DNA of 64,000 bases. Source: Glandiceps talaboti (Eukaryota > Hemichordata > Enteropneusta > Spengelidae). A program made the position numbers and the translations under genes. Under the pieces are notes generated by a model that made no database searches, was not told the DNA's origin, and worked only from the letters and a program-made list of their open reading frames with translations. This document shows positions 38,701 through 63,914 of the stretch, piece by piece (position 1 is the first letter of the stretch; every line of letters begins with the position of its first letter). The stretch covers positions 10,389,342 to 10,453,341 of the forward strand of contig NC_135549.1 in NCBI RefSeq assembly GCF_964340395.1. Direction: 5' to 3'.

Positions 38701-41700
38701 TGTATCAGTGATATATATTTGTATTAGATATAGGTACAGACAGAATGTTACACAGATATGGTTTATTTGGTAAAGACTTTGTTTTTAGTAACGTCTCAGA
38801 CATTGTGTTGTCTTGGATGACACCAACTGTATTTGGTATTGAAAATTGTGTGTCTAGTAACCTTGACTGATTAAGACTTTTGTGAAACACCATTGCAGTT
38901 ACACTCATGCAATTACTACAGACTTATGAAGTGACACACAGACTCTCACTGAGTGACGTTTTCAAACAGCAACAAATAGACTTGTTAGTTTATACTTATA
39001 ATGATATTGTGTAAACTACTTTGCACACAACTACAATCTTGGTTGTAGCCTATTTTTCTAACTGTCAGATTGAACACACAAACACCATTTCACTTGACAT
39101 TCTCAAGAAAGGGGACTGACTAAGATCAAGTTAAATGAAAGTACTTTTATTTAACCAGGGTATTTGCTCAATGCCAGACAACTTTTCCAGCATGGCACTT
39201 ATACAAAAAATACACACATCTACAAGACAAATGAATAGATGGTGAAATGAATTGAATGTTCTAATACTTGACTTTATCACTTACATAAACAGTTTATATC
39301 ATTTCATGTGAATTTTCAAGAAATTGAATAATCATGATTACTACATGATTCTTACAAATGTTTAGACACCAAAGTAAGATGAAAAATTGACAAATTTAAA
39401 CACTAGAAATTGCTATTTAAATAAAACTAGAAATAAGATCTTTCTCTTTTTAGATGAAAACTTGATATTATATCACTACTGAAGTATTCTTCAATGACTA
39501 ATTGTTTTAGACATATTTTATATTGAGTTTTAGTAGGACTATATTGGCAGTTGTTTCTAGGACTCTAAGTGTAGTGTACTTTCTGAAATAGTGGTTATGA
39601 TAGTCTTGTGGTATATTGTTCACACATTTGAACAAAATAATTCACTAGGTGAACTTTATCACTCCATCAACATTTTGTTCCCCCCAATAGAATTCCACAT
39701 CACTTGTTCAGCTTTGCTGGTACTAAAGACAAACGTGCAATCACCGTACAAGAAGTAACAGCTTACAGGTATGGCATTTATCACTCTACTTCATTCATTT
39801 TCTCTTTATGGTTGTGCAAAAAATCATTTCAAATAATACATTTTAGACAATTTCCAGACTCAGAAAATATGTGATCAAATATTGTAAAAGTAACTTTTTT
39901 TTAATCATCAAATTCCTATTTTATAGTTTCAAAATGAGAAATAATATAATACTTGAATCTGTTTAATTTTGTTACTTTTATTTTGTAATTTTGAGGTGCA
40001 CTCAACATAGCCTGCAGATCAGTCTTTTTCTATATGTTGTCTATTCACTTTAACGATTTGTATTATGGGCCGGTGGCCTAAATTATGGAATAAATCATAT
40101 CATATAATCATCAAAACATCTATAATTTAATTCTTCTTCTTCTTGATCTTGACTAGCATGTTGTGGTCAAGATCTAAATGTCAATAGTTTATTGTATTAT
40201 CATAGCTATGTGCGGTTCTGTAGAATTAGGCTGTACAAAACATAATGAAATCCTTGACTCTATTCATCACCAAGGTCAAGTACAAACAACAAAAATCACA
40301 TAATATATGAAACCATGACAACTGTAATGTTTTCACCAAATACTATAGAATAATGTCTTTCTATCACAATGTGGTGTGTTATATATACTTCCATACTTAT
40401 TTTACTAAAACATATTAATGAAAGTACATATTTTCTTCTAAATTTTCACACATCTTAAAGCAGAATACAAACAAAATAGTTGTCTTTTGTTTTCAATGAA
40501 AATTACATCTCTTGAATATTAAATACTATAACATACTTTGTACTTCAATGTCATCAATGTTATGGGATCCTAAATGATCAAATGTTTGATTAAAATTAAT
40601 TGAAAATTGAATTTACTAAAACATGAAAACACAGTACAAATAGTCTATATTTACAGGTAATAATGGAAAGAACATAATACTACCATGAAATAGTTTAGTT
40701 TGACACATGCTGGATCTAATGAATTTGTTACATCTAACAGGCTTATATACTTCCATTTATACAAATATAGAAACATTCTTTGTTTGAAACAATGTGTATC
40801 ATTGTTGTCTAGGTTACTGACAAGTTTTTACTTCTTTTTTTTTTCTCTTTTTTTCAACCAAAGTACTCAATACATTTTGTTGGTGTTAAATATTTTTCTT
40901 CCTGGGTTTTTTAATTTTTAATTTTTCTCCCCAATTTGACGCTTTATATTTGTGACTAAAATGTTGGAATACTAGTGACAGTACTAGATCTTGTTTCGTT
41001 GGTGTCAATTTCTGTTTCACTGCTAGTACTAGTACTATGTATGTTAGGGCTACTGCTTTCATATACAAAGCTCAAAGACACGGCATCATCATCATCACTT
41101 TGGAAGAAGACTTTGTCAGATAGACTATGTCCATTCAGCTGGTTACTGTATTTGTTGTAGGCATTACCTAACCTGTGTTTCCTGCATTTACAGTATAACA
41201 ATACACCAGCTAAGAGTATGACAACAACGCATACTGTGACGGCTATGGCAATTGTTTTGACCGGTTTTCTTTGAGTTTGGAAACTTGGTTGTGGAGAAGC
41301 TGTCGTGATTAAGATGCACTGATTACTGTCTTTATTGTACACTTTGTCATTGATTATGTCATTCTTTTCTGCCATACTAATGGCGTTGATACATATTTTG
41401 TATTGAGTATGAGGCAGTAAATCTTGTAATTGGTAGGTGTTTTGTTGCTTTGGAATGGCTGCACTTGAAAATTGTTCATCTGTTTGTACATTTGTGTAGA
41501 CAATTTTGAAGACTGAGATGCCTTTATCATAGGATGGTAAATCCCATGAAATGATGGCACTTGAATCAGTAACGTTAGTTGCCTTAATGTTAATGTCTAC
41601 TACAATCTCACATCTTGACCCTGTGTATGATGGTGGACACAGACATACTGGTTCCGTGTTAACCCTAATTTGACATTCACCATTGTTATAGCAAGGATTG

Positions 41701-44700
41701 GGAGTGCATGAAGGTTGCTGTGGTTTTCGGCTTGCTGTAGAAATAGATTTTGTGATCCCCTTATTACGTTGCGTTGTTACACGGTTAATAGTTGTTGTCA
41801 AGACCGTTGTTGGAATATATGGTAAAACCACTGTAACATTGATAAACAGTGTCATACTACCAACATTGTTAGTGGATGTACAATTATAAGTGCCGGCATC
41901 AAATTGGGTCATGTTACTAATATATAATGTACCATCAATAGTTACCTGTATGCCTGGGTACATTTCACCAATGTGAATTTGGGTTTTATCTGGCAGAGTC
42001 CATACTAAATTTGCAATGCTGTCTTGCGTCAACACACATGCTAAGCTGATATTACTTCCTACGATGAGGTCGATGTGATCTATGTCTGTTGTGATATTTG
42101 GAAAGATACAGTTTAGTTTGTCTGATGTCAGCGATGTTAAACTTTTCCCATTGTAAACCTGTGGCTTTGTGCATTCAGTGTTCAGTACAGAAGCACGTGA
42201 AAATTTAAAGTCATTCCGTGCCATCCAGTCATGGAACCAGTTCAGTTTACAGTCACAGTACAAAGGGTTCATTGATAGGTCAAATTCTTCCAAGTAGTAC
42301 AGGGCTTCCAAACTACCGTCACCTATGTAATGAATCTGATTGTTCTGTAGAAACAAGGACTTCAACAATTTCATGTCTGTGAAGAGCTCAGAATTGAGGC
42401 TGCTTAGTTTGTTGTACTGTAGCAACAATCTCTGCAAGTTGTATAAACCATGGAAGACATCGTCATCAATGTGTACCAGTTGGTTACGTTGTAAATTTAA
42501 AGTATTCAAAGATGACAAGTTGTGAAATACACCGGATAGTAGAAATTTGATCTTGTTATTTTCTAACGATAATGATTGTAACGATGACATGTCAATAAAA
42601 GAATCCTTTGCCAGTGTTTGTATCTCACTGTCATGAAGATTGAAATACTGTAATGATTTAAGACCTCTGAATATTTGATTACTTATCTTAAACAGCCTAC
42701 AGTTATGGATTTCCAGAGTTGTTAAGTTTTTTAACGGTTTCAAAGTGTTTGGACTGATGTCTGTAATGTGACTCAGATGTAACTCCTTCAAGTTGGCACA
42801 GGATTTAAATAAACCGCTTGGTAATGATCCCAGTGGATTGTCCATTATTTGCAAGGTGTTCAGTTGGGATAATCCAAGGAATGTGTCTTCGTCCAAATTA
42901 TGGATGTCGTTTCCCTCCAGATGCAGCTCACGTAGGATTGGTACATACTGAAATACTCCTAGTGGCAAATACTGGATCAGATTTTGGCGTAAATCCAGGT
43001 TTCGTAAAACAGACAATCCAAAGAATGTGTCCACAGTGATATTTTTCAAACGGTTATCTGCCAGTGCAATGTATTGTAGTTGGGTATTGTTGTGAAATAA
43101 ACCAGTCGGTATCATTTCTAACAGGTTGGATGTTAGGTAGATGTTGTTCAGTTTAGCTAGGTGGGATAATGCATTGTCTGCTATCATGGTTATTCGGTTG
43201 TCATGGAGATTGATGAATTGTAGATGATCCATGCCAAGGAAAGTGTCAGAAGAAATGGAAGTGATTTCATTCCGGTACAGATGTAATGAAACTAATTCCT
43301 TCAAGGCTTTGATAGCTGTTGGTATAGCTTTGAAGAAGTTCTGTGTAAGTACCAAATCCTTGAGTTGGCTCAGACCAACAAAAGAGTTGTCCGGAATGTT
43401 GGATAACTGATTTCCACCTAAAATCAATGCTTGCAGCTTGGTTGTGTTTTGAAAAGTGTTTGGTGCTATCGACTCAATGTCATTGTAGGATAAATCCAGG
43501 AACATCAGCTCACCAAGATTCTCAAAATCAGTTGAAGAAATATTTTTGATATTATTGTAATTAAGTTCCAATGTTTGTGTATTGTTTGGTAGAGTTCTTG
43601 GTATGCTGGTTAGTAATGGATCCTGGCTGCGACAGTTGATAGAGAAATGGTTGCCAAGTGGTAGTGGATAGAAATACTTTGTGGTGTAGCCGCATTGACA
43701 TGGACAGTCTGTCTCGGCTACAGACTCACCAGTAGTTGACATTAAAGTGATCAACAGCAGCAAAACGTGATATGTAGGCATAGTGATTGATTTATGACCA
43801 CTCAGTGTATGTCTGTACAGTTTAGTAATATGATCTGTAACAGTAACAGTGCAATAAGCTCTCCAAAGTTGACAACTGATGAATCAGAAACCTGTTACAC
43901 TGTGTAGTGTTCTTGTTGATGGCACATACAATTCCAACTGTGTCACAGTGCAGTCAGTTCTCCAAAGTTGGCAGCTGGGTGGATCAAAACCTTGTCAAAT
44001 TATGGAAGTGAGAAGTACGATTTCAACTGAAGTCAAATTTGCAAAAGTTTGCAGCTGAGTGGATCCAAAGCTTGTCAAGCGATCAGTATTATGTCCAGTT
44101 CTCTGAAAATGGCAACTGAGTGAATCAATTCCTTACCAAGCTATGTCTGTACAATTAGTAGTACACGTCTAACTCTGTGAAAGTGAAGTCAGCTCTCCAA
44201 AGTCAGTAACTGAATGAACCACAGTCTCGTTAAGCTATGCAGTTTTGTGCTGAGGTCACTGGGAAAATGATAAGCCAAGATGTTTAGGCAGAAGTGAGGA
44301 GGAAATGACAGGAAGAGGAAATATGCAGTGGCAAGATAAAAAGTCCAATTCCCATGGAAGTCAACTGATATAAATATCACTATCATATTCAAAATGATAC
44401 TTGTTTGTCGTATTAAAAGTTAATTTATGGCAATGAGGCATTTTTATAACCCACTGTTACATATTGATCCAGTGTAGTGTGTTCAATTGTTTTTGTTGTC
44501 TGTTTTTTGCAGACATTTCAGAATGACCGTCAAAGTCAAGGACAATCTATGCAAATTAACCAAAATGTATTTACTAAATGAGGATGTTTATATTCTGGAC
44601 TGTTAAAAATCAAATGCCAACATTTTCTTTTGCTTTTTTTTCAAGTGAGAGATCTTTGGGTTACATAAAGGGTCCTGTAACTTTTACAAGATGGGGAGTC

Positions 44701-47700
44701 ACAAGGCCCTTTGTGAGTTACATGGCCTTACTGAATGAATGACAAGAAATAATTCAAAATAATACAATTTGTGAGCAAACTTCATAAAACTGTTATAATT
44801 TGTTTTAATTTTAATAGTAGTGCAGTAAAAGTTTGTGTGTGTTATGACATTATAGCATTGAAGAATAAATCTCACATTTTTTGCTATGACCAGCGGATGC
44901 AATTAGACATTATTGAATTCCCCCATTATTTTTCTTCTTTCAGCCAAGGAAAATATGAGTGACCTAAGGGGCCTTGTCATTATGATCGAAAACGAGTATT
45001 GACAATCCTCTGAGGTCATAAGTATTTTCTGGCTGAATTTATGACAAATCAAGAAAAATATTGGCAATTTTGAATGGTTTGACTTATATTTATTTCGAGC
45101 ACCGCAGAACCAATGACAAATGAAAGCTGTCATGATGTAAAACAAACAGTATAAAACCCATATTTTTTGTCAGAACATGTTCAATATGGCCTCTGTGTGT
45201 GGTATAATATTGTGTATCAGTTTGGAACCCCCATTGGATGGTATTTGTGTCTTCAGTCAGTATCATAGGAAAATTGTCATGGACAAGAATAATCAAAAGT
45301 ATGTCTAGAAATGTTGTGATAACTTTTACTGACATCCTCTTTAATAATCAGATCGTACATATTATATCCTAACATGCTAACTATAATTAGGTAATATTCC
45401 CCCTATATTTTTCTTCAGGAACATCCGAGTGACCTAAGGGGTCTTTGTCACTATGAGTCACTAGACGAGTAGAGCCAACCTTAAAGTCATGAGTATATCT
45501 AATTATACCATCACCAGTAATATAAAAAAAAAACTCTGGGAAAGTAACGGCAATTTTTAGGATTTTGACTCATATTTCGAACACAGCAGAACCAATTATG
45601 TAGACACACTTTGTCATGACATAGATGCACATTGTTGTGACAGAACAACCAGACAACACATATATTCCATATTTTTTGTTGAACCTGGCTCATTCATTGT
45701 ATAACAATACTTTGCTAATAATAAGTATTTATTACATCCTTGTATTCATAACTAGCAATCAATAATTATTGTAACTAGTATTTTACTGTATGTATAAAAC
45801 TAGATTAAAAGTGCAGGTATAAAATGTGAGCTTTTAAAATTATCTAGATTAAATGACAATTTAGAAAATGGTTAGTGATAAGGAAATTATCTATAACATT
45901 TCAAATGTTTGACATATCAATGTGATAAACTTTCTTTCTCAATTTTACAAGTTTTTTTTTACACTTCCTTTGGCCTCATATCAGTGGTACTGAAAATAAA
46001 ATCAACTAAAATTAGGCCTTTACACAGGAAATGCTAGTAGGATGGAGATAAGCCATACTGCAGGAAGTAGTCATTTCTTAGATCAAACACAAGAAAAAGT
46101 GTGTCATGTGGTTGCTATTCTGTCCTTGTTTACCTCACACACTTCTCATTTTTATAAGTTTTATGTCCAGAATAAGTTGTTGTTTTTCAATTTCTTTCTT
46201 TCTCTCAGTGTAGAAGACATGAATTTCAAATCTTTCATGCGTTATGTTATCCATAATGATAATACCCGTTATAGTCCTTCCTGGATAGTTCTCCTAAAAT
46301 AAATCCTATGTAGTTCTCCCGGATAGTCCTAAAATAAATCCATTGTACTCAGGTTGTTGTCATGATTGACAATGGTAGAGAGTCAATATCCAAACAGTGT
46401 AAGGGTTGGTGTTATAGCATGATACTGACCAGGGATACAAATATTTGATAAGATGTGGGTTCTTTAGTGTGATTGCGTTCAAGTACACAGGCCTGTGCTA
46501 TATTGGTAGATAAAACCCATTGTGTAACCCCCCCCCCCCCTCCAAGATCTATGTTCTACTGTAGTGTAATGGCTGTAATGTAAAAAACATTGCATAGTCC
46601 CTCAACTGCAATGTCTATGAGTGAGAACTTTGGGTAGGGTGTATGTTGTAATGATGTAAGTTATCTGAATATATGTAATATCACAATCTGTATGGTCATG
46701 CATTTGGTTAACATTGGATACGTGAATAATCCAGTATTTGTAGATTTCAAGTACTCAAAGGAAGTGTTATCCAGTATTTGTAGATTTCAAGTACTCAAAG
46801 GAAGTGTTATCCAGTATTTGTAGATTTCAAGTTCTCAAAGGAAGTGTTATCCAGTATTTGTAGATTTCAAGTACTCAAAGGAAGTGTAATCCAGTATTTG
46901 TAGATTTCAAGTACTCAAAGGAAGTGTTATCCAGTATTTGTAGATTTCAGGTACTCAAAGGAAGCCTTATCCAGTATTTGTAGATTTCAAGTACTCAAAG
47001 GAGCGTTATCCAGTATTTGTAGATTTCAAGTACTCAAAGGAAGTGTTATCCAGTATTTGTAGATTTCAAGTACTCAAAGGAAGCGTTATCCAGTATTTGT
47101 AGATTTCAAGTACTCAAAGGAAGTGTTATCCAGTATTTGTAGATTTCAAGTACTCAAAGGAAGTGTTATCCAGTATTTGTAGATTTCAAGTACTCAAAGG
47201 AAGTGTTATCCAGTATTTGTAGATTTCAAGTACTCAAAGGAAGTGTTATCCAGTATTTGTAGATTTCAAGTACTCAAAGGAAGCGTTATCCAGTATTTGT
47301 AGATTTCAAGTACTCAAAGGAAGTGTTATCCAGTATTTGTAGATTTCAAGTACTCAAAGGAAGTGTTATCCAGTATTTGTAGATTTCAAGTACTCAAAGG
47401 AAGTGTTATCCAGTATTTGTAGATTTCAAGTACTCAAAGGAAGCATTATCCAGTATTTGTAGATTTCAAGTACTCAAAGGAAGTGTTATCCAGTATTTGT
47501 AGATTTCAAGTACTCAAAGGAAGTGTTATCCAGTATTTGTAGATTTCAAGTACTCAAAGGAAGTGTTATCCAGTATTTGTAGATTTCAAGTACTCAAAGG
47601 AAGTGTTATCCAGTATTTGTAGACTTCAAGTACTCAAAGGAAGCGTTATCCAGTATTTGTAGACTTCAAGTACTCAAAGGAAGTGTTATCCAATATTTGT

Positions 47701-49736
47701 AGATTTCAAGTACTCAAAGGAAGTGTTATCCAGTATTTGTAGATTTCAAGTACTCAAAGGAAGTGTTATCCAGTATTTGTAGACTTCAAGTACTCAAAGG
47801 AAGCGTTATCCAGTATTTGTAGACTTCAAGTACTCAAAGGAAGTGTTATCCAGTATTTGTAGATTTCAAGTACTCAAAGGAAGTGTTATCCAGTATTTGT
47901 AGATTTCAAGTACTCAAAGGAAGTGTTATCCAGTATTTGTAGATTTCAAGTACTCAAAGGAAGCGTTATCCAGTATTTGTAGATTTCAAGTACTCAAAGG
48001 AAGTGTTATCCAGTATTTGTAGATTTCAAGTACTCAAAGGAAGCGTTATCTAACTTTATCAAAGTGTACACCATTAACTCTTGTTAACTTTACAGAGTAG
48101 AAGCACCCAGACTGTATGGCTTAAATAAAACGCTGAAGAATATCAAGCTTAGCAATTTTAGGTAAGTCAAACTCAAAATCAGTTTTTTGCATAGTTGTTT
48201 TCATACCTCTGTTTTGACTACACTTTTCAATTATGTTTCTTGTACAATGTCTTGTATTACCGGTAGTTGCACGGTAGTTGCCAAAGACAGTCGTGTGAAG
48301 TAAATCTGACAGCATGCAGATATTATTTTTACCACATGAAATGCATACATTGGCCAAAAGTCTCCAATTTTGTAATGGATGCAAATTTTGGTATATTTTC
48401 AGATATTGCAAGGATGCCCTAAGACTTGGTGATTTGAGTGGCAATCACTTCACAATAGTTATAAGGTAAAACAAAGTTATAGTTCTACAAGTGTATTATA
48501 GATATAGTGCTGAGAGATATGAAGTAAGATTATGTATAATTAGTGCATAGTATATCATATCTACAATCTCATTGGCTGAAAAACCAGTGATGTAAGTATT
48601 ATGAACATGTGCCCCAACTCTGAATAATAAGACCTAATGACAAGATACTGTATACAAGCTAGGGAATTTTGAATTTGATGTCAAAACTAACTTTTAAATT
48701 GATTAAATTCTTTTAACAAAGTTAAGTTCATGAGAATATGTCAATTGTGATGATCTAACTCCACCCCCCACCCCCCACCCCCATCACATGATCCATAACT
48801 TATTTATAGTATTAAAGTGTATCATTGAATTATTATCACATGATGTCTTTATTTGTACAAACACTTAGAGATGTACTCCACCCCTACCAGGATTAACAAG
48901 GACAGCAATACTGCTACCATTTCATTTGGAGTCAAAATCAGTTTTCACCAGTTTCTTTTTCATGTTTCTGTTATTTTAAACCAGACAGGTGTACATTTCT
49001 TTTTTTATCTTTTCCTTTAAATAAAATTGTTTATTATAATCTTGTCTTTCAGTCTTGCATAATTTCAAATTTCAGACTAAATTTCTACTTTATATCCAAT
49101 ATTAAACCTACCGATAAAATTTTTTTTTTCTTCATCAGAAGTGTCGAAGCCAATGATAGCGAGATTGAATCAGCAATGACATCATTTCAAAATACTGGTT
49201 TTATCAATTATTATGGCATGCAGAGATTTGGTACAACAGCCATTGCCAATTTCAGAGTTGGAAGGTAAATTAATTATAACTTATTAAGCTGGTTAGTTCT
49301 TTAGATCTCGTATTAGGAGCATTATCTTCACCGGTCCTAAGCTTTACAAGGTTTTGTTATACATGCTACAAAGTCAATATTCTTGTTGATACATTACATT
49401 GACAATATTTGTAATTAATTTGTAAAGGTGAATATTTTTCAGCAAGACCTGTTCAATGGAAGAAAAGACCCTATAAGGCCAAAAAAAATGTTTCTGATCA
49501 GCAACTTAAATACCCTCGCATCGGTCTTTTTTTTTGTGTTTGTCCAGCCCATGCAGTCTGCAGATCCGAGGGAAATGCAAAAATAACCCTCCCTACTTTA
49601 GTGAAGACAACTGCAGAGCCAATCATGAACAAGTAAATGACATCTGCCACACATACACACTAACTCTAAAGTACTAAATAAAAAGAACAGTAACTGCCAT
49701 AAATAGTAGACTGAGTGACAGGTTTGTTGAGAATTA

Positions 49737-57364: not shown

Positions 57365-57867
57365 ACTTGCATTTATGACCAAATTATTCATATATATACA
57401 TAAAGAAAGCCCTGACATAGTCACAACATGATAGGTATTGATTGCATTGTTAGCTTGTTTTTAAACTTGGACACATTACATTCCAGCTGCAAATTTTAAT
57501 ATACTGGTTGTGACGTTGTTGCTAAACTTGGACACCTTACATCCCAGCCCCAAATTGAATATATTAATTAACAAGTTTACTATCTGACTGACAAGGAAAG
57601 AAAAAATTTGATTTGTGCATGTTCCATGTTGATATATATGATATTTTGTACATCTAATTTCTATTATAATAACTTAATTATTTCATACCAGCAGTTATAT
57701 CAAGCAATTCATCATGACTACCTTCTTGTCAAAAGTTACATCTTGAAGTCATGGCAAAAGAGGCATACAATGTCATTTGCTTGTTACTTTGCATACTGAT
57801 GAGGTGATTTGCATTTAAGGCTGTTGACATTAACACATTAAACTTTGCATCGTAGTCCTTCACTGTA

Positions 57868-58213
57868 CTGATGACTGGTCATCTGCTACACAAATACTGA
57901 TGACTGGACATCTGCTACACAAATACTGATGACTGGACATCTGCTACACACATACTGATGACTGGTCATCTGCTACACAAATACTGATGACTGGACATCT
58001 GCTACACACAAACTGATGACTGGTTATCTACTACATAAATGCTGATGAATGTTATCTACTACACAGATCCTGGTGACTGGTTATCTACTACACAAATACT
58101 GATGACTGGTCATCTACTGCACAAATACTGATGACTGGTCATCTACTACACAAATACTGATGACTGGTCATCTACTACACATTTATTGATGACTGCTCAT
58201 CTTCTACACTGAT
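57868..58213. repeat. 29-bp minisatellite abutting the SLC37 stop codon
   Basis: About 12 copies of a unit such as ACTGATGACTGGTCATCTAC plus TACACAAAT. The last recognisable unit (CTGATACTGGTGACTG, 58210-58225) overlaps the final codons and stop of the SLC37 gene, so the array grew out of, or into, the coding end. A variant unit (ACATTTATTGATG) creates a minus-strand AATAAA at 58182-58187, just past the stop. Confidence 0.9.
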
Positions 58214-61200
58214 ACTGGTGACTGTGGTTTTACTGTCCTTTTCACCCAGGATGCTTTGATTAAGGCCAGTGATCCCACCACACAGATCACAACCATAACA
58301 TATAGTATGGATTCCCAGTTGTAATACTGTATGATAAATCCAATCAGTGGTCCTTGTAGAACAGTACCAATACTACCACAACCTGTACCAATAAAGTAAA
58401 ACAATTTTATGCTATGATTATCCCCTTCATCACTTTGTGCTTAAACATAGTGATCTCCAGAGCTCTTTATGTTAACATCACTTTGTGAAAAAGTAAAGTA
58501 AATGCACATACTAATTAAGAAATGGACAATTTTTGAAAATGATAACTTTTATAAGAAAAGTTTCTGCGAAATTTCCATTTACGAAAAAAAGTTGTATCGA
58601 TAACTTTGTAATAAGCCCAATAAAAAATGTTATTAAATAAAAACAAAAAAGACCCATCACTTTGTCCTTATACATAGTGGCCTTCAGAGCTCTTTATGCT
58701 AACATCACTTTCATGGCTAACTCACAATTTCATACTTTAAACATTAATCAAATTCTCATGTCAACCAGTAGATTGCCTAAATTATAATGGCAAGTTTAAA
58801 AAATCCTTCATAAATTTTGGACCAAAGTTCATTAATTGTATCCATTTCTTTGACTTGTGTTCAATATAACAAAGTATTACAAATGATTGGTCAATTTTAA
58901 TTAAGACTCTCATTTTCAGAATTCTTGCATGATTAAGATGAACAATATTTATCTTATAATAATAATATGCTTTATTCATAGTACCACTGGCCACTGGCCT
59001 AACGTAGAGAAATGAATATATACAAAAACTGTGAATGTAGAGGTTTGTTGTGGCAATGGCACATACAAATCCACACACTAATTGTAAATAAAACCAATAT
59101 TAGTCTATCATACTTTGGTGTAAACGGAAAGCAAAAAATACAAACTTTGCTAAATTATTCTGAGTATGAACATGATTTGTTCTCATCAAAGAATAAAATT
59201 TAAATTGTGAAGGTGGCTGAAAGGAAAATTGTGGGATATACAATTCTCTCAATGGTTGATATTAAACAAAAAATGAAATTCACCTTCAATATCTATGTTA
59301 ATACACTGAATTGGCACAGCTTAAAATTGCTACATAATACTCACCGTTGACAAATCCAGAAAGTGCAGCCTGTATGTTTCTACCATTCATTTGACCCAAT
59401 TCCAATGGTAGTGTACCGGTTAGTATAGGATCAGGACCACAGTTGAAAACACCAAATAATACCATTGATAGTATATTAAATAACATACCATAGTTACTGG
59501 TCAACAGGAACAATAGCAATGCTACTGTGCTTAGAATTGTACAAATGACACAGCCTAGGGTGGTTTTACCTGGCAGCCACCTAAGGTCAAAGTTAAGAAA
59601 CATATATAAATATTTTTACTAGTACTCTAAGATACATGTCACTTTGTGGCTTTGTTCAAAACAGTTGCAAAACTTTCTACCTAGAGGATAGTATACACAA
59701 ACACACATCTCAGAGTGATACCTAGAGAATAGTAAACACAAACACACATCTCACAGTGATAACTAGAGGATAGTAAACACAAACACACATCTCATAGTGA
59801 CACCTAGAGGATAGTAAACACAAACACACATCTCATAGTGACACCTAGAGGATAGTAAACACAAACACACATCTCACAGTGATACAGAGATAATAGTAAA
59901 CACAAACGCACATCTCATAGTGATACCTAGAGAATAGTAAACACACATCTCAGACTGAAAGATTCATTTTTGAGTACACTCCATTAATTACTTGGTCCAG
60001 AATGTTAAATTCTTATAACATACCAGCCTGGGATTTCTCCTAACCATGCTTACCTATCTATAATAAACCCTAGTAATGCACTACCAGCCACTCCACCAAT
60101 CTCATAGGACAGTGATAACATACCAGCCTGGGATTTCTCCTAACCATGCTTACCTATCTATAATAAACCCTAGTAATGCACTACCAGCCACTCCACCAAT
60201 CTCATAGGACAGTGATAACATACCAGCCTGGGATTTCTCCTAACCATGCTTACCTATCTATAATAAACCCTAGTAATGCACTACCAGCCACTCCACCAAT
60301 CTCATAGGACAGTGATAACATACCAGCCTGGGATTTCTCCTAACCATGCTTACCTATCTATAATAAACCCTAGTAATGCACTACCAGCCACTCCACCAAT
60401 CTCATAGGACAGTGATAACATACCAGCCTGGGATTTCTCCTAACCATGCTTACCTATCTATAATAAACCCTAGTAATGCACTACCAGCCACTCCACCAAT
60501 CTCATAGGACAGTGATAACATACCAGCCTGGGATTTCTCCTAACCATGCTTACCTATCTATAATAAACCCTAGTAATGCACTACCAGCCACTCCACCAAT
60601 CTCATAGGACAGTGATAACATACCAGCCTGGGATTTCTCCTAACCATGCTTACCTATCTATAATAAACCCTAGTAATGCACTACCAGCCACTCCACCAAT
60701 CTCATAGGACAGTGATAACATACCAGCCTGGGATTTCTCCTAACCATGCTTACCTATCTATAATAAACCCTAGTAATGCACTACCAGCCACTCCACCAAT
60801 CTCATAGGACAGTGATAACATACCAGCCTGGGATTTCTCCTAACCATGCTTACCTATCTATAATAAACCCTAGTAATGCACTACCAGCCACTCCACCAAT
60901 CTCATAGGACAGTGATAACATACCAGCCTGGGATTTCTCCTAACCATGCTTACCTATCTATAATAAACCCTAGTAATGCACTACCAGCCACTCCACCAAT
61001 CTCATAGGACAGTGATAACATACCAGCCTGGGATTTCTCCTAACCATGCTTACCTATCTATAATAAACCCTAGTAATGCACTACCAGCCACTCCACCAAT
61101 CTCATAGGACAGTGATAACATACCAGCCTGGGATTTCTCCTAACCATGCTTACCTATCTATAATAAACCCTAGTAATGCACTACCAGCCACTCCACCAAT

Positions 61201-63519
61201 CTCATAGGACAGTGATAACATACCAGCCTGGGATTTCTCCTAACCATGCTTACCTATCTATAATAAACCCTAGTAATGCACTACCAGCCACTCCACCAAT
61301 CTCATAGGACAGTGATAACATACCAGCCTGGGATTTCTCCTAACCATGCTTACCTATCTATAATAAACCCTAGTAATGCACTACCAGCCACTCCACCAAT
61401 CTCATAGGACAGTGATAACATACCAGCCTGGGATTTCTCCTAACCATGCTTACCTATCTATAATAAACCCTAGTAATGCACTACCAGCCACTCCACCAAT
61501 CTCATAGGACAGTGATAACATACCAGCCTGGGATTTCTCCTAACCATGCTTACCTATCTATAATAAACCCTAGTAATGCACTACCAGCCACTCCACCAAT
61601 CTCATAGGACAGTGATAACATACCAGCCTGGGATTTCTCCTAACCATGCTTACCTATCTATAATAAACCCTAGTAATGCACTACCAGCCACTCCACCAAT
61701 CTCATAGGACAGTGATAACATACCAGCCTGGGATTTCTCCTAACCATGCTTACCTATCTATAATAAACCCTAGTAATGCACTACCAGCCACTCCACCAAT
61801 CTCATAGGACAGTGATAACATACCAGCCTGGGATTTCTCCTAACCATGCTTACCTATCTATAATAAACCCTAGTAATGCACTACCAGCCACTCCACCAAT
61901 CTCATAGGACAGTGATAACATACCAGCCTGGGATTTCTCCTAACCATGCTTACCTATCTATAATAAACCCTAGTAATGCACTACCAGCCACTCCACCAAT
62001 CTCATAGGACAGTGATAACATACCAGCCTGGGATTTCTCCTAACCATGCTTACCTATCTATAATAAACCCTAGTAATGCACTACCAGCCACTCCACCAAT
62101 CTCATAGGACAGTGATAACATACCAGCCTGGGATTTCTCCTAACCATGCTTACCTATCTATAATAAACCCTAGTAATGCACTACCAGCCACTCCACCAAT
62201 CTCATAGGACAGTGATAACATACCAGCCTGGGATTTCTCCTAACCATGCTTACCTATCTATAATAAACCCTAGTAATGCACTACCAGCCACTCCACCAAT
62301 CTCATAGGACAGTGATAACATACCAGCCTGGGATTTCTCCTAACCATGCTTACCTATCTATAATAAACCCTAGTAATGCACTACCAGCCACTCCACCAAT
62401 CTCATAGGACAGTGATAACATACCAGCCTGGGATTTCTCCTAACCATGCTTACCTATCTATAATAAACTCTAGTAATGCACTACCAGCCACTCCACCAAT
62501 CTCATAGGACAGTGATAACATACCAGCCTGGGATTTCTCCTAACCATGCTTACCTATCTATAATAAACCCTAGTAATGCACTACCAGCCACTCCACCAAT
62601 CTCATAGGACAGTGATAACATACCAGCCTGGGATTTCTCCTAACCATGCTTACCTATCTATAATAAACCCTAGTAATGCACTACCAGCCACTCCACCAAT
62701 CTCATAGGACAGTGATAACATACCAGCCTGGGATTTCTCCTAACCATGCTTACCTATCTATAATAAACCCTAGTAATGCACTACCAGCCACTCCACCAAT
62801 CTCATAGGACAGTGATAACATACCAGCCTGGGATTTCTCCTAACCATGCTTACCTATCTATAATAAACCCTAGTAATGCACTACCAGCCACTCCACCAAT
62901 CTCATAGGACAGTGATAACATACCAGCCTCAGATTTCTCCTAACCATGCTTACCTATCTATAATAAACCCTAGTAATGCACTACCAGCCACTCCACCAAT
63001 CTCATAGGACAGTGATAACATACCAGCCTGGGATTTCTCCTAACCATGCTTACCTATCTATAATAAACCCTAGTAATGCACTACCAGCCACTCCACCAAT
63101 CTCATAGGACAGTGATAACATACCAGCCTCGGATTTCTCATAACCAAGCTGTAAAAGATAACATTATGGCATTCAAGATTTCAAGATCTCTCACTCATGG
63201 AACTTGTGGATGAATATGGTATCCATAGAAACTATTGTGATATACTTCAATTCGTGTATTAAAGTCTAAGAAATGGTTGAAGTTGAATGAAAACAGATGA
63301 CAAATCAATATTGTGTTTTAAGTGCATACAGGGAAAACGCATCAAACAAGCTCTCTGTCTGAGGAAAATCAGAGGATGTCTGTTAATTTTGTATCAAGAT
63401 ATGTTTTATCATCAAACTTGCATTCTTGTCAAAATAATTGACATATTTTAATGTAACAGGATGCCAAGAGACCTGAATACATTACATCTAAAACTAATAT
63501 TTGTATGAAGAGAAAGCAT

Positions 63520-63584
<65 letters not shown>

Positions 63585-63914
63585 ATGCACGCACATGCAC
63601 GCACGCAATATAAAACATGTTGATGGTGATACATCGTAGCCTTGTGTATATAACTTACATGTTGATGGAGATACATTGGTAGCCACATATACATACAGTA
63701 ACGCACCATTTTGACACAAAATGTTGCTATGGCAAGTTCTGGTAACATTCTGTGAAGCAAAGATGGATAAGAATTCTAGAGTGATTACTACATTCGCTAA
63801 ATAAAACAAAGAATAGTGTATTTCATATTAGATTCACTTACGGTATTTTCAATAATTGTAACATGCCAATTGACGTTTCAGAGGGGTGTTTAACTGCATT
63901 AGAGTTTACTGCGT
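58204..63914 (-). CDS. SLC37 family sugar-phosphate/phosphate antiporter, 3' part of gene
   Basis: SLC37 proteins are ER-membrane MFS transporters exchanging sugar phosphates for phosphate. Five terminal exons are visible, phase-consistent: 63914-63842, 63749-63659, 63148-63054, 59580-59345, 58382-58204; earlier exons lie right of the window. In order: the central-loop end and SIGMLQLLKIP; a helix with KMVRYCMYMWLPMYL; LGYEKSEAGMLSLSYEIGG followed by FIIDR (the SLC37 pattern of ...EAG.LS...D.GG....G..SDR); two helices with NCGPDPILTGTLPLELGQ and NIQAALSGFVNG; then CGSIGTVLQGPLIGFI, NWESILYVMVV and a short basic tail. The family pattern NGPxxLI with xGSxGxxxGPLxG and GW is matched with several changes (CGPDP, NW). 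The paralogue cannot be set. The intron between 63053 and 59581 contains the 100-bp exon-derived array. AATAAA on the minus strand at 58187-58182 follows the stop. Confidence 0.85.
58428..58715. repeat. ~60-bp direct duplication in the last SLC37 intron
   Basis: CATCACTTTGTGCTTAAACATAGTGAT...CAGAGCTCTTTATG..AACATCACTTT-like sequence occurs at 58428-58490 and again at 58655-58715 with minor differences. Confidence 0.75.
59675..59960. repeat. 41-bp minisatellite in an SLC37 intron
   Basis: About seven copies of CCTAGAGGATAGTAAACACA then AACACACATCTCACAGTGATA, located between the 59580 acceptor and the 100-bp array. Confidence 0.93.
60015..63120 (-). repeat. 100-bp exon-derived array, 31 donor-bearing copies, SLC37 intron
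   Basis: The period is exactly 100 bp. The donor-containing word TACCTATCTA recurs at 60051, 60151 and so on to 63051, giving 31 copies, plus a partial copy at 60015-60046. Each unit equals nucleotides 3-95 of the SLC37 exon at 63148-63054 followed by the first seven intron bases (GTAAGCA). The founder at the 5' (high-coordinate) end has an intact acceptor and reads GGT-TAT-GAG..TCC-GAG; the copies read GGT-TAG-GAG..TCC-CAG, so they carry a stop in the exon frame. Copies are otherwise nearly identical. One junction (62921-62940) keeps an intermediate form (TCT-GAG), and one unit has a C-to-T change at 62469. Inclusion of extra copies would shift the frame, so they are read as intronic. Confidence 0.97.
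63523..63582. repeat. (CA)n microsatellite
   Basis: About 30 CA units in the intron between two SLC37 exons. On the minus strand it gives spurious poly-Cys/Val frames. Confidence 0.97.
63607..63690. repeat. ~42-bp duplication of an SLC37 exon 3' end and donor
   Basis: On the minus strand the exon end GGCTACCAATGTATCTCCAT-CAACAT and its donor GTAAGTTATA are followed at once by a diverged copy, GGCTACGATGTATCACCATC-AACATGTTTTATA. The copy has lost the GTAAG consensus (GTTTTA). The functional donor is the first, at 63658-63657. Confidence 0.85.

Follow-up and report, generated by a model that had tools for sequence, protein, structure and literature searches.

An SLC37-like transporter gene on the minus strand of the Glandiceps genome was found to carry, directly downstream of its tenth exon, a 100-nucleotide (nt) tandem repeat that copies the exon-intron boundary itself, with 31 donors of equal predicted strength in a single intron. 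The gene lies at the end of a 64,000-nt stretch of contig C1 (C1:10389342-10453341, the whole of which is called the window here), and we read the array, with a probability of roughly three in four, as a minisatellite of the kind known from amphioxus as a 'mirage', born on the exon edge and tolerated through exon definition and an immediate stop behind the later donors. The assembly comprises 590.4 Mb in 47 contigs, of which C1 makes up 35.9 Mb. Sequence past the window end was taken from a neighbouring 20-kb piece (L010), positions in which become window-style coordinates on addition of 64000.

Anatomy of the array

Tandem Repeats Finder (TRF), run on the window, reported a repeat at 60015-63150 with a period of 100, 31.4 copies, 99% matches and a score of 6230. 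The unit consists of nt 3-95 of the founder exon plus seven intron bases (GTAAGCA), arranged head to tail on the minus strand, and the array derived from the exon (60015..63053) contains 30 full 100-nt copies and a truncated last copy. The sequence GTAAGCATGG occurs 31 times on the minus strand (at 63053, 62953 ... 60053), with a spacing of exactly 100 throughout; the first occurrence is the founder's own donor and the other 30 belong to the copies, the last being followed by a partial copy of 39 nt and then by different intron sequence. All lie within a GT-AG intron of 3,473 nt (63053-59581). The original prediction, which described a 31-copy, 100-bp array inside its own gene, composed of this unit and offering near-identical GTAAGCA donors within one 3.5-kb intron, thus agreed with the counts and with the exact register of the copies.

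Out of the 30 full copies, 28 were identical, one of the others differing at two sites and the second at one. Relative to the founder, a TAT to TAG change was present in 30 of 30 copies and a GAG to CAG change in 29 of 30, both as originally described. Divergence was 0.2% per site among the copies, compared with 2-3 per 100 sites between founder and copies, which fits a later expansion or homogenisation and so the recent expansion or conversion that had been proposed from the homogeneity of the array. The same exact sequence, from 76 nt upstream through 21 nt downstream, surrounds 30 of the 31 donors. A search of the 590-Mb assembly, in which the best candidates only were scored, placed the array unit at a single locus, which points to a local rather than a dispersed origin. 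The copy number is that of the assembly alone.

Host gene and founder exon

The host gene was rebuilt from the window and the neighbouring 20 kb as 12 exons encoding 427 amino acids, with no inner stop and with GT-AG ends at 11 of 11 introns. Exons 1-7 lie past the window end, in L010, and are followed on the minus strand by exon 8 (63842..63914), exon 9 (63659..63749), exon 10 (63054..63148, the founder), exon 11 (59345..59580), whose acceptor scores only 3.2, and exon 12 (58204..58382), which ends in the stop codon TAG. Structure and paralog searches were done with a 418-amino-acid version of the model, in which nine residues of exon 5 are missing. Matches to solved structures included Os08g0156600 (E 1.2e-32), SLC37A2 (3e-28) and SLC37A4 (4.7e-24; query residues 8-409), as well as the glycerol-3-phosphate transporter 1pw4 (E 5e-22). 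The alignments to SLC37 structures cover most of this version, which is almost identical to the 427-residue model, and the gene is SLC37-like (a sugar-phosphate transporter), in keeping with the name originally given to it. No close paralog was present among the scored candidates, the next match having 28% identity.

Exon 10 (95 nt, in frame) encodes LGYEKSEAGMLSLSYEIGGVAGSALLGFIID(R) and falls inside the alignments to SLC37A2 and a plant relative, across the stretch EAGMLSLSYEIGGVAG. Its acceptor, TGTTATCTTTTACAG (longer reading TTTTACAG), scores 8.9 and its donor 9.9, and the exon is a genuine one. No copy has a good acceptor, and the earlier statement that only the founder possesses a real one was upheld.

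Splice signals and reading frame in the intron

Splice sites were scored with consensus frequencies not trained on this species, and acceptors were compared with ten of the twelve exon starts (exons 5 and 6 left out). The 31 array donors have a score of 9.9 each; elsewhere in the gene, correctly placed donors range from 6.2 to 10.6. A second donor-like site, CTG/GTATGT (slashes mark splice junctions), is present in each copy, and altogether 62 sites in the intron score at least 6. At the donor the frame reads GAT AGG TAA, with an in-frame TAA inside the donor directly after the founder, and every later donor therefore gives the same immediate stop.

Two sites within the unit could in principle act as acceptors. 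The pseudo-acceptor TAGGAGAAATCCCAG/G has a score of -1.2, whereas the ten scored exon starts lie between 3.2 and 10.9; the GAG to CAG change has lifted it from -5.8, and its AG lies 26 nt from the preceding donor. It would open a 74-nt pseudo-exon, for which a frame shift had been predicted; this stands where the pseudo-exon is added to exon 10, but not where it replaces the founder (95-74 = 21 nt, frame kept). Use of the pseudo-exon is unlikely because its acceptor scores only -1.2. The AG at the exon end, read as an acceptor (GTTTATTATAGATAG/G), scores 0.95 and has a poor pyrimidine tract.

The same intron contains a second minisatellite (59678..59945, minus strand), made up of 6.5 copies of a 41-bp unit. 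It holds six acceptor-like sites with scores of 5.8-8.6, all above that of the true exon 11 acceptor, and splicing into any of them would lead to a premature stop.

Other exon-edge repeats in the same gene

Repeats derived from exon edges were found at 4 of the 12 exons: the start exon, the exon 6 donor, exon 10 and the stop codon. The start exon (from 69092, window-style) is directly preceded by an array of 52-bp units (L010 5079-5453, minus strand) that repeat its acceptor and start-codon region; they carry TTCACAG/GATGG, which combines an acceptor-like site (9.3) with a start-codon-like ATG, the latter recognised by eye. Downstream of exon 6 (65375-65316) stand about three diverged tandem copies of the exon with its donor GTAAGTTTA (L010 1140-1375, that is, 65140-65375, minus strand), a repeat that was spotted by eye and is not reported by TRF. 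At the other end of the gene, a 29-bp unit present 12.4 times (57866..58224, minus strand) comprises the last codons and the stop codon and continues into the 3' untranslated region. Outside the count of four, a single imperfect duplicate of the exon 9 donor region lies a short way downstream of it (63608-63641, minus strand; 37-nt alignment, 84%), perhaps the beginning of a further exon-edge repeat.

Four of the six arrays in the gene lie on an exon edge, relative to 1.17 expected (P 0.013), and three of five do so when the reported array is excluded (P 0.03). These P values are optimistic, the array list being hand-made and including the repeat found by eye, and some exon ends used in the test are off, by 27-28 nt at the start of exon 5 and by 1-2 nt elsewhere; the excess at exon edges within the gene is a hint only.

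Minisatellites and donor arrays across the genome

Eighteen 10-kb pieces drawn at random, with about 176 kb of known letters between them, contained 33 minisatellites with a period of at least 20, which occupied 17.9 kb (approximately 10%), in a genome with a GC content of 36%. Over 264 kb, all three of the units that hold a donor scoring at least 9.5 adjoin a real or likely exon end, namely the array reported here and arrays in two further pieces, L014 and L018. The L014 array (L014 1-963, minus strand) repeats a 32-nt unit about 30 times, most copies having CAG/GTAAGT or CAG/GTGAGT; it shares 13 exon nt and begins at a likely exon end (..YGLPLKIVSYQ) of an exon without a Pfam match. The L018 array (2.6 copies according to TRF, three donors) adjoins a kinesin exon (Pfam E 5.7e-8, above the cut-off), of which only 4 nt are shared. 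No excess of acceptors was found in the units of the 45 arrays in the 264 kb (acceptors of at least 6 in 8 units, control mean 10.4; of at least 8 in 5, control 4.1).

The genome was also scanned for three AGGTRAG motifs at repeat-like spacing, places being listed only for the start of C1. Counts exceeded those for the reversed motif (10,639 vs 7,757; 10,863 vs 4,387; 9,033 vs 6,308), but no enrichment is claimed, as matches overlap and long arrays dominate. Among the matches listed, 12 distinct donor arrays lie within about 5 Mb of C1, all of them from two of the scans, the third contributing no further array; if this stretch is typical, the genome would hold some 1,400 (725-2,450) donor arrays, a rough figure, the three match lists ending at different points.

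The heads of three of these 12 arrays (L043, L045 and L047) show an acceptor and a coding-looking open exon of at least 100 nt. The L045 array (from C1:2287893 onward; 46-bp units, with matches across about 5 kb) starts at a polycystin-channel-like exon end, VLVNICIAMMSDTYPKLK, the exon reaching 21.4 bits, just below the Pfam cut-off of 22.4. L041 (acceptor 3.3) and L044 (40-nt exon) have plausible exon heads, while a Pfam search of L041, L043 and L047 gave no significant match. L049 passed the numeric exon test, yet its sequence looks non-coding. Altogether, 4 of the 12 arrays passed that test, compared with 10.5% of random positions (P 0.03), or 3 of 12 without L049 (P 0.12). Exon-edge donor arrays thus recur in the genome, their frequency at exons being uncertain.

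The window contains several other minisatellites, among them one of 40 bp (46729-48050, 33 copies, 97% matches) and one of 69 bp.

Proposed origin and tolerance of the array

We propose that a local duplication copied the terminal 93 nt of exon 10, together with the first seven bases of the intron, to a place immediately behind the true donor, that substitutions became established in the copies, and that unequal exchange or slippage raised their number, to 31 donors in all, and kept them uniform. The three further exon-edge repeats in the gene, and the donor arrays seen elsewhere at authentic or probable exon ends, point to a general mutational process. In the mature transcript, the single acceptor of exon 10 would most likely be paired with the nearest donor by exon definition (95 nt), and the other 30 donors would be removed as intron. 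Tolerance of the inner donors can be explained by two properties: they would require exons at least 195 nt long, and the TAA lies inside the donor, so that any later one would give the same truncated, decay-prone mRNA.

Several points weigh against this explanation. Use of the first donor is a prediction from the sequence. Donor enrichment in minisatellite units was not significant in the 264 kb (3 of 45 units with a donor of at least 9.5, control mean 1.3, with 26 of 200 control sets reaching 3), so that nothing in these counts shows a donor-specific birth process. No convincing exon was seen at the head of 7 of the 12 C1 arrays, L049 among them. A lancelet host is doubtful, so the published mirages may be unrelated to this array by descent. 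Lancelets carry many GFP-family genes; searches with a lancelet-derived fluorescent protein and with the Pfam GFP family, neither of which had a working positive control, gave no match. On the mitochondrial contig, COX1, COX2 and ATP6 lie on one strand, with a spacing that we take to be compatible with chordate or hemichordate gene order.

The original prediction had suggested that the array might act as a donor decoy tract, a splicing-timing element or a source of premature-stop isoforms. A function in splicing, through surplus U1-binding decoys, slower intron removal, a shield against premature polyadenylation or poison isoforms, could draw on the presence of 31 strong donors in one intron and on six acceptor-like sites, each giving a stop, that precede a true acceptor of lower score. 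We nevertheless consider it unlikely: the start- and stop-codon repeats of the same gene have no donor logic, minisatellites are abundant in the genome, donors are not enriched in their units, and published mirages seem to leave splicing regular (PMC3087553). No evidence for the suggested functions was found, and the other repeats point to a mutational process instead. A further alternative is recursive or traceless splicing, in which a junction between any donor and the AG that precedes the following one would restore the same donor and leave no trace in the mRNA. The sequence logic of the repeat, with every copy ending AG/GTAAGC, would allow it, but a recursive splice site combines a good pyrimidine tract with an AG joined to a donor, and here the acceptor part reaches only 0.95 with a poor tract, making this very improbable.

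Least credible of all is that the copies serve as spare or mutually exclusive versions of exon 10, entered through CCCAG/GCTGG. By arithmetic, a 74-nt exon that takes the place of exon 10 would keep the frame between exons 9 and 11, and the GAG to CAG change in 29 of 30 copies improves the site, but its score stays far under those of the ten correctly placed exon starts and merely 26 nt separate it from the donor. It is also quite unlikely that the 31 copies reflect the assembler and that the true number differs. The identity of 28 of the 30 full copies would suit such an artefact, as would the mitochondrial contig (C40), which looks like a false head-to-tail concatemer with COX1 three times exactly 15,435 bp apart; against this, 590 Mb in 47 contigs suggests long reads that would span 3.1 kb, and two of the copies carry private variants.

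The local sequence is the same at 30 of the 31 donors, so that site strength and local enhancers are constant while distance from the acceptor varies, and the gene becomes a clean test bed for whether a nearest-to-acceptor rule alone decides donor choice. A broader proposition is offered tentatively, and we would put it below even odds: that in an animal probably outside the lancelets exon-edge minisatellites are born so frequently that one 12-exon gene bears four, that perhaps a thousand donor arrays exist, many of them intronic, and that splicing ignores dozens of identical donors. Such a genome would be a natural large-scale experiment on first-donor choice and on intron gain from repeats, and its arrays would lend themselves to work on intron gain and on alleles of unstable length. 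Recurrence within the gene and across the genome would take a curiosity of a few lancelet genes to genome scale.

Other features of the window

An uninterrupted 975-amino-acid open frame at 40959-43883 (minus strand) contains leucine-rich repeats and immunoglobulin (Ig), EGF and fibronectin type III domains. At 48897-49265 (plus strand), tRNA pseudouridine synthase D gave a weak match below the threshold, possibly an exon of a PUS7-like gene.

Comparison with known systems

Several known classes of repeat resemble the array in part. An introner, that is, a dispersed intron-making element, was rejected, the unit lying at one locus only among the best candidates scored. The minisatellite of human IFI6 (6-16), which Turri is said to have described in 1995, reportedly supplies several splice donors, and its unit is short. 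The likeness to our array lies in a minisatellite offering several donors, whereas the unit here is 100 nt and its donors are predicted from sequence. In the potato RdRp gene, an intron is reported to have been gained via tandem duplication of an AGGT-containing segment (PMC4974935). Splice signals are carried on the duplicated segment in both cases, but in the present gene no new intron splits an exon: exon 10 is intact at 95 nt and in frame, and the copies sit in the subsequent GT-AG intron, which does not fit intron gain by AGGT duplication.

The closest parallel is provided by the amphioxus mirages, which are tandem repeats across exon-intron boundaries in Adh3 and globin genes (BflGb6 and BflGb9) that may affect 5' or 3' exon edges and carry AG/GT signals in many copies (PMC3087553). 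The copies undergo concerted evolution within a cluster and vary in length, and Adh3 data and globin reverse transcription PCR (RT-PCR) suggest that regular splicing is undisturbed, which by analogy supports the reading of our array as tolerated. PGBD5 and TnC have likewise been likened to mirages in a second report (PMC3902484). No genome-wide account of such arrays was found in a partial literature search, which is no proof of absence from print.

Our array differs from these cases in scale and setting. It has 31 donors and a 100-bp unit at 99% matches, while in BflGb6 the units number 3 and 6, measure 150-160 bp and are 81-100% alike; four exon-edge repeats occur in one gene here; splicing was judged by RT-PCR in amphioxus, and the present array is known from the genome sequence; and the host may not be a lancelet. 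Host lineage apart, it shows the testable features that define a mirage: the unit spans the exon-intron boundary of its host gene, splice signals are present in the copies in addition to the authentic one, and the copies are closer to each other than to the founder. The array is thus a large and uniform example of an established type of repeat, rather than unique in kind.

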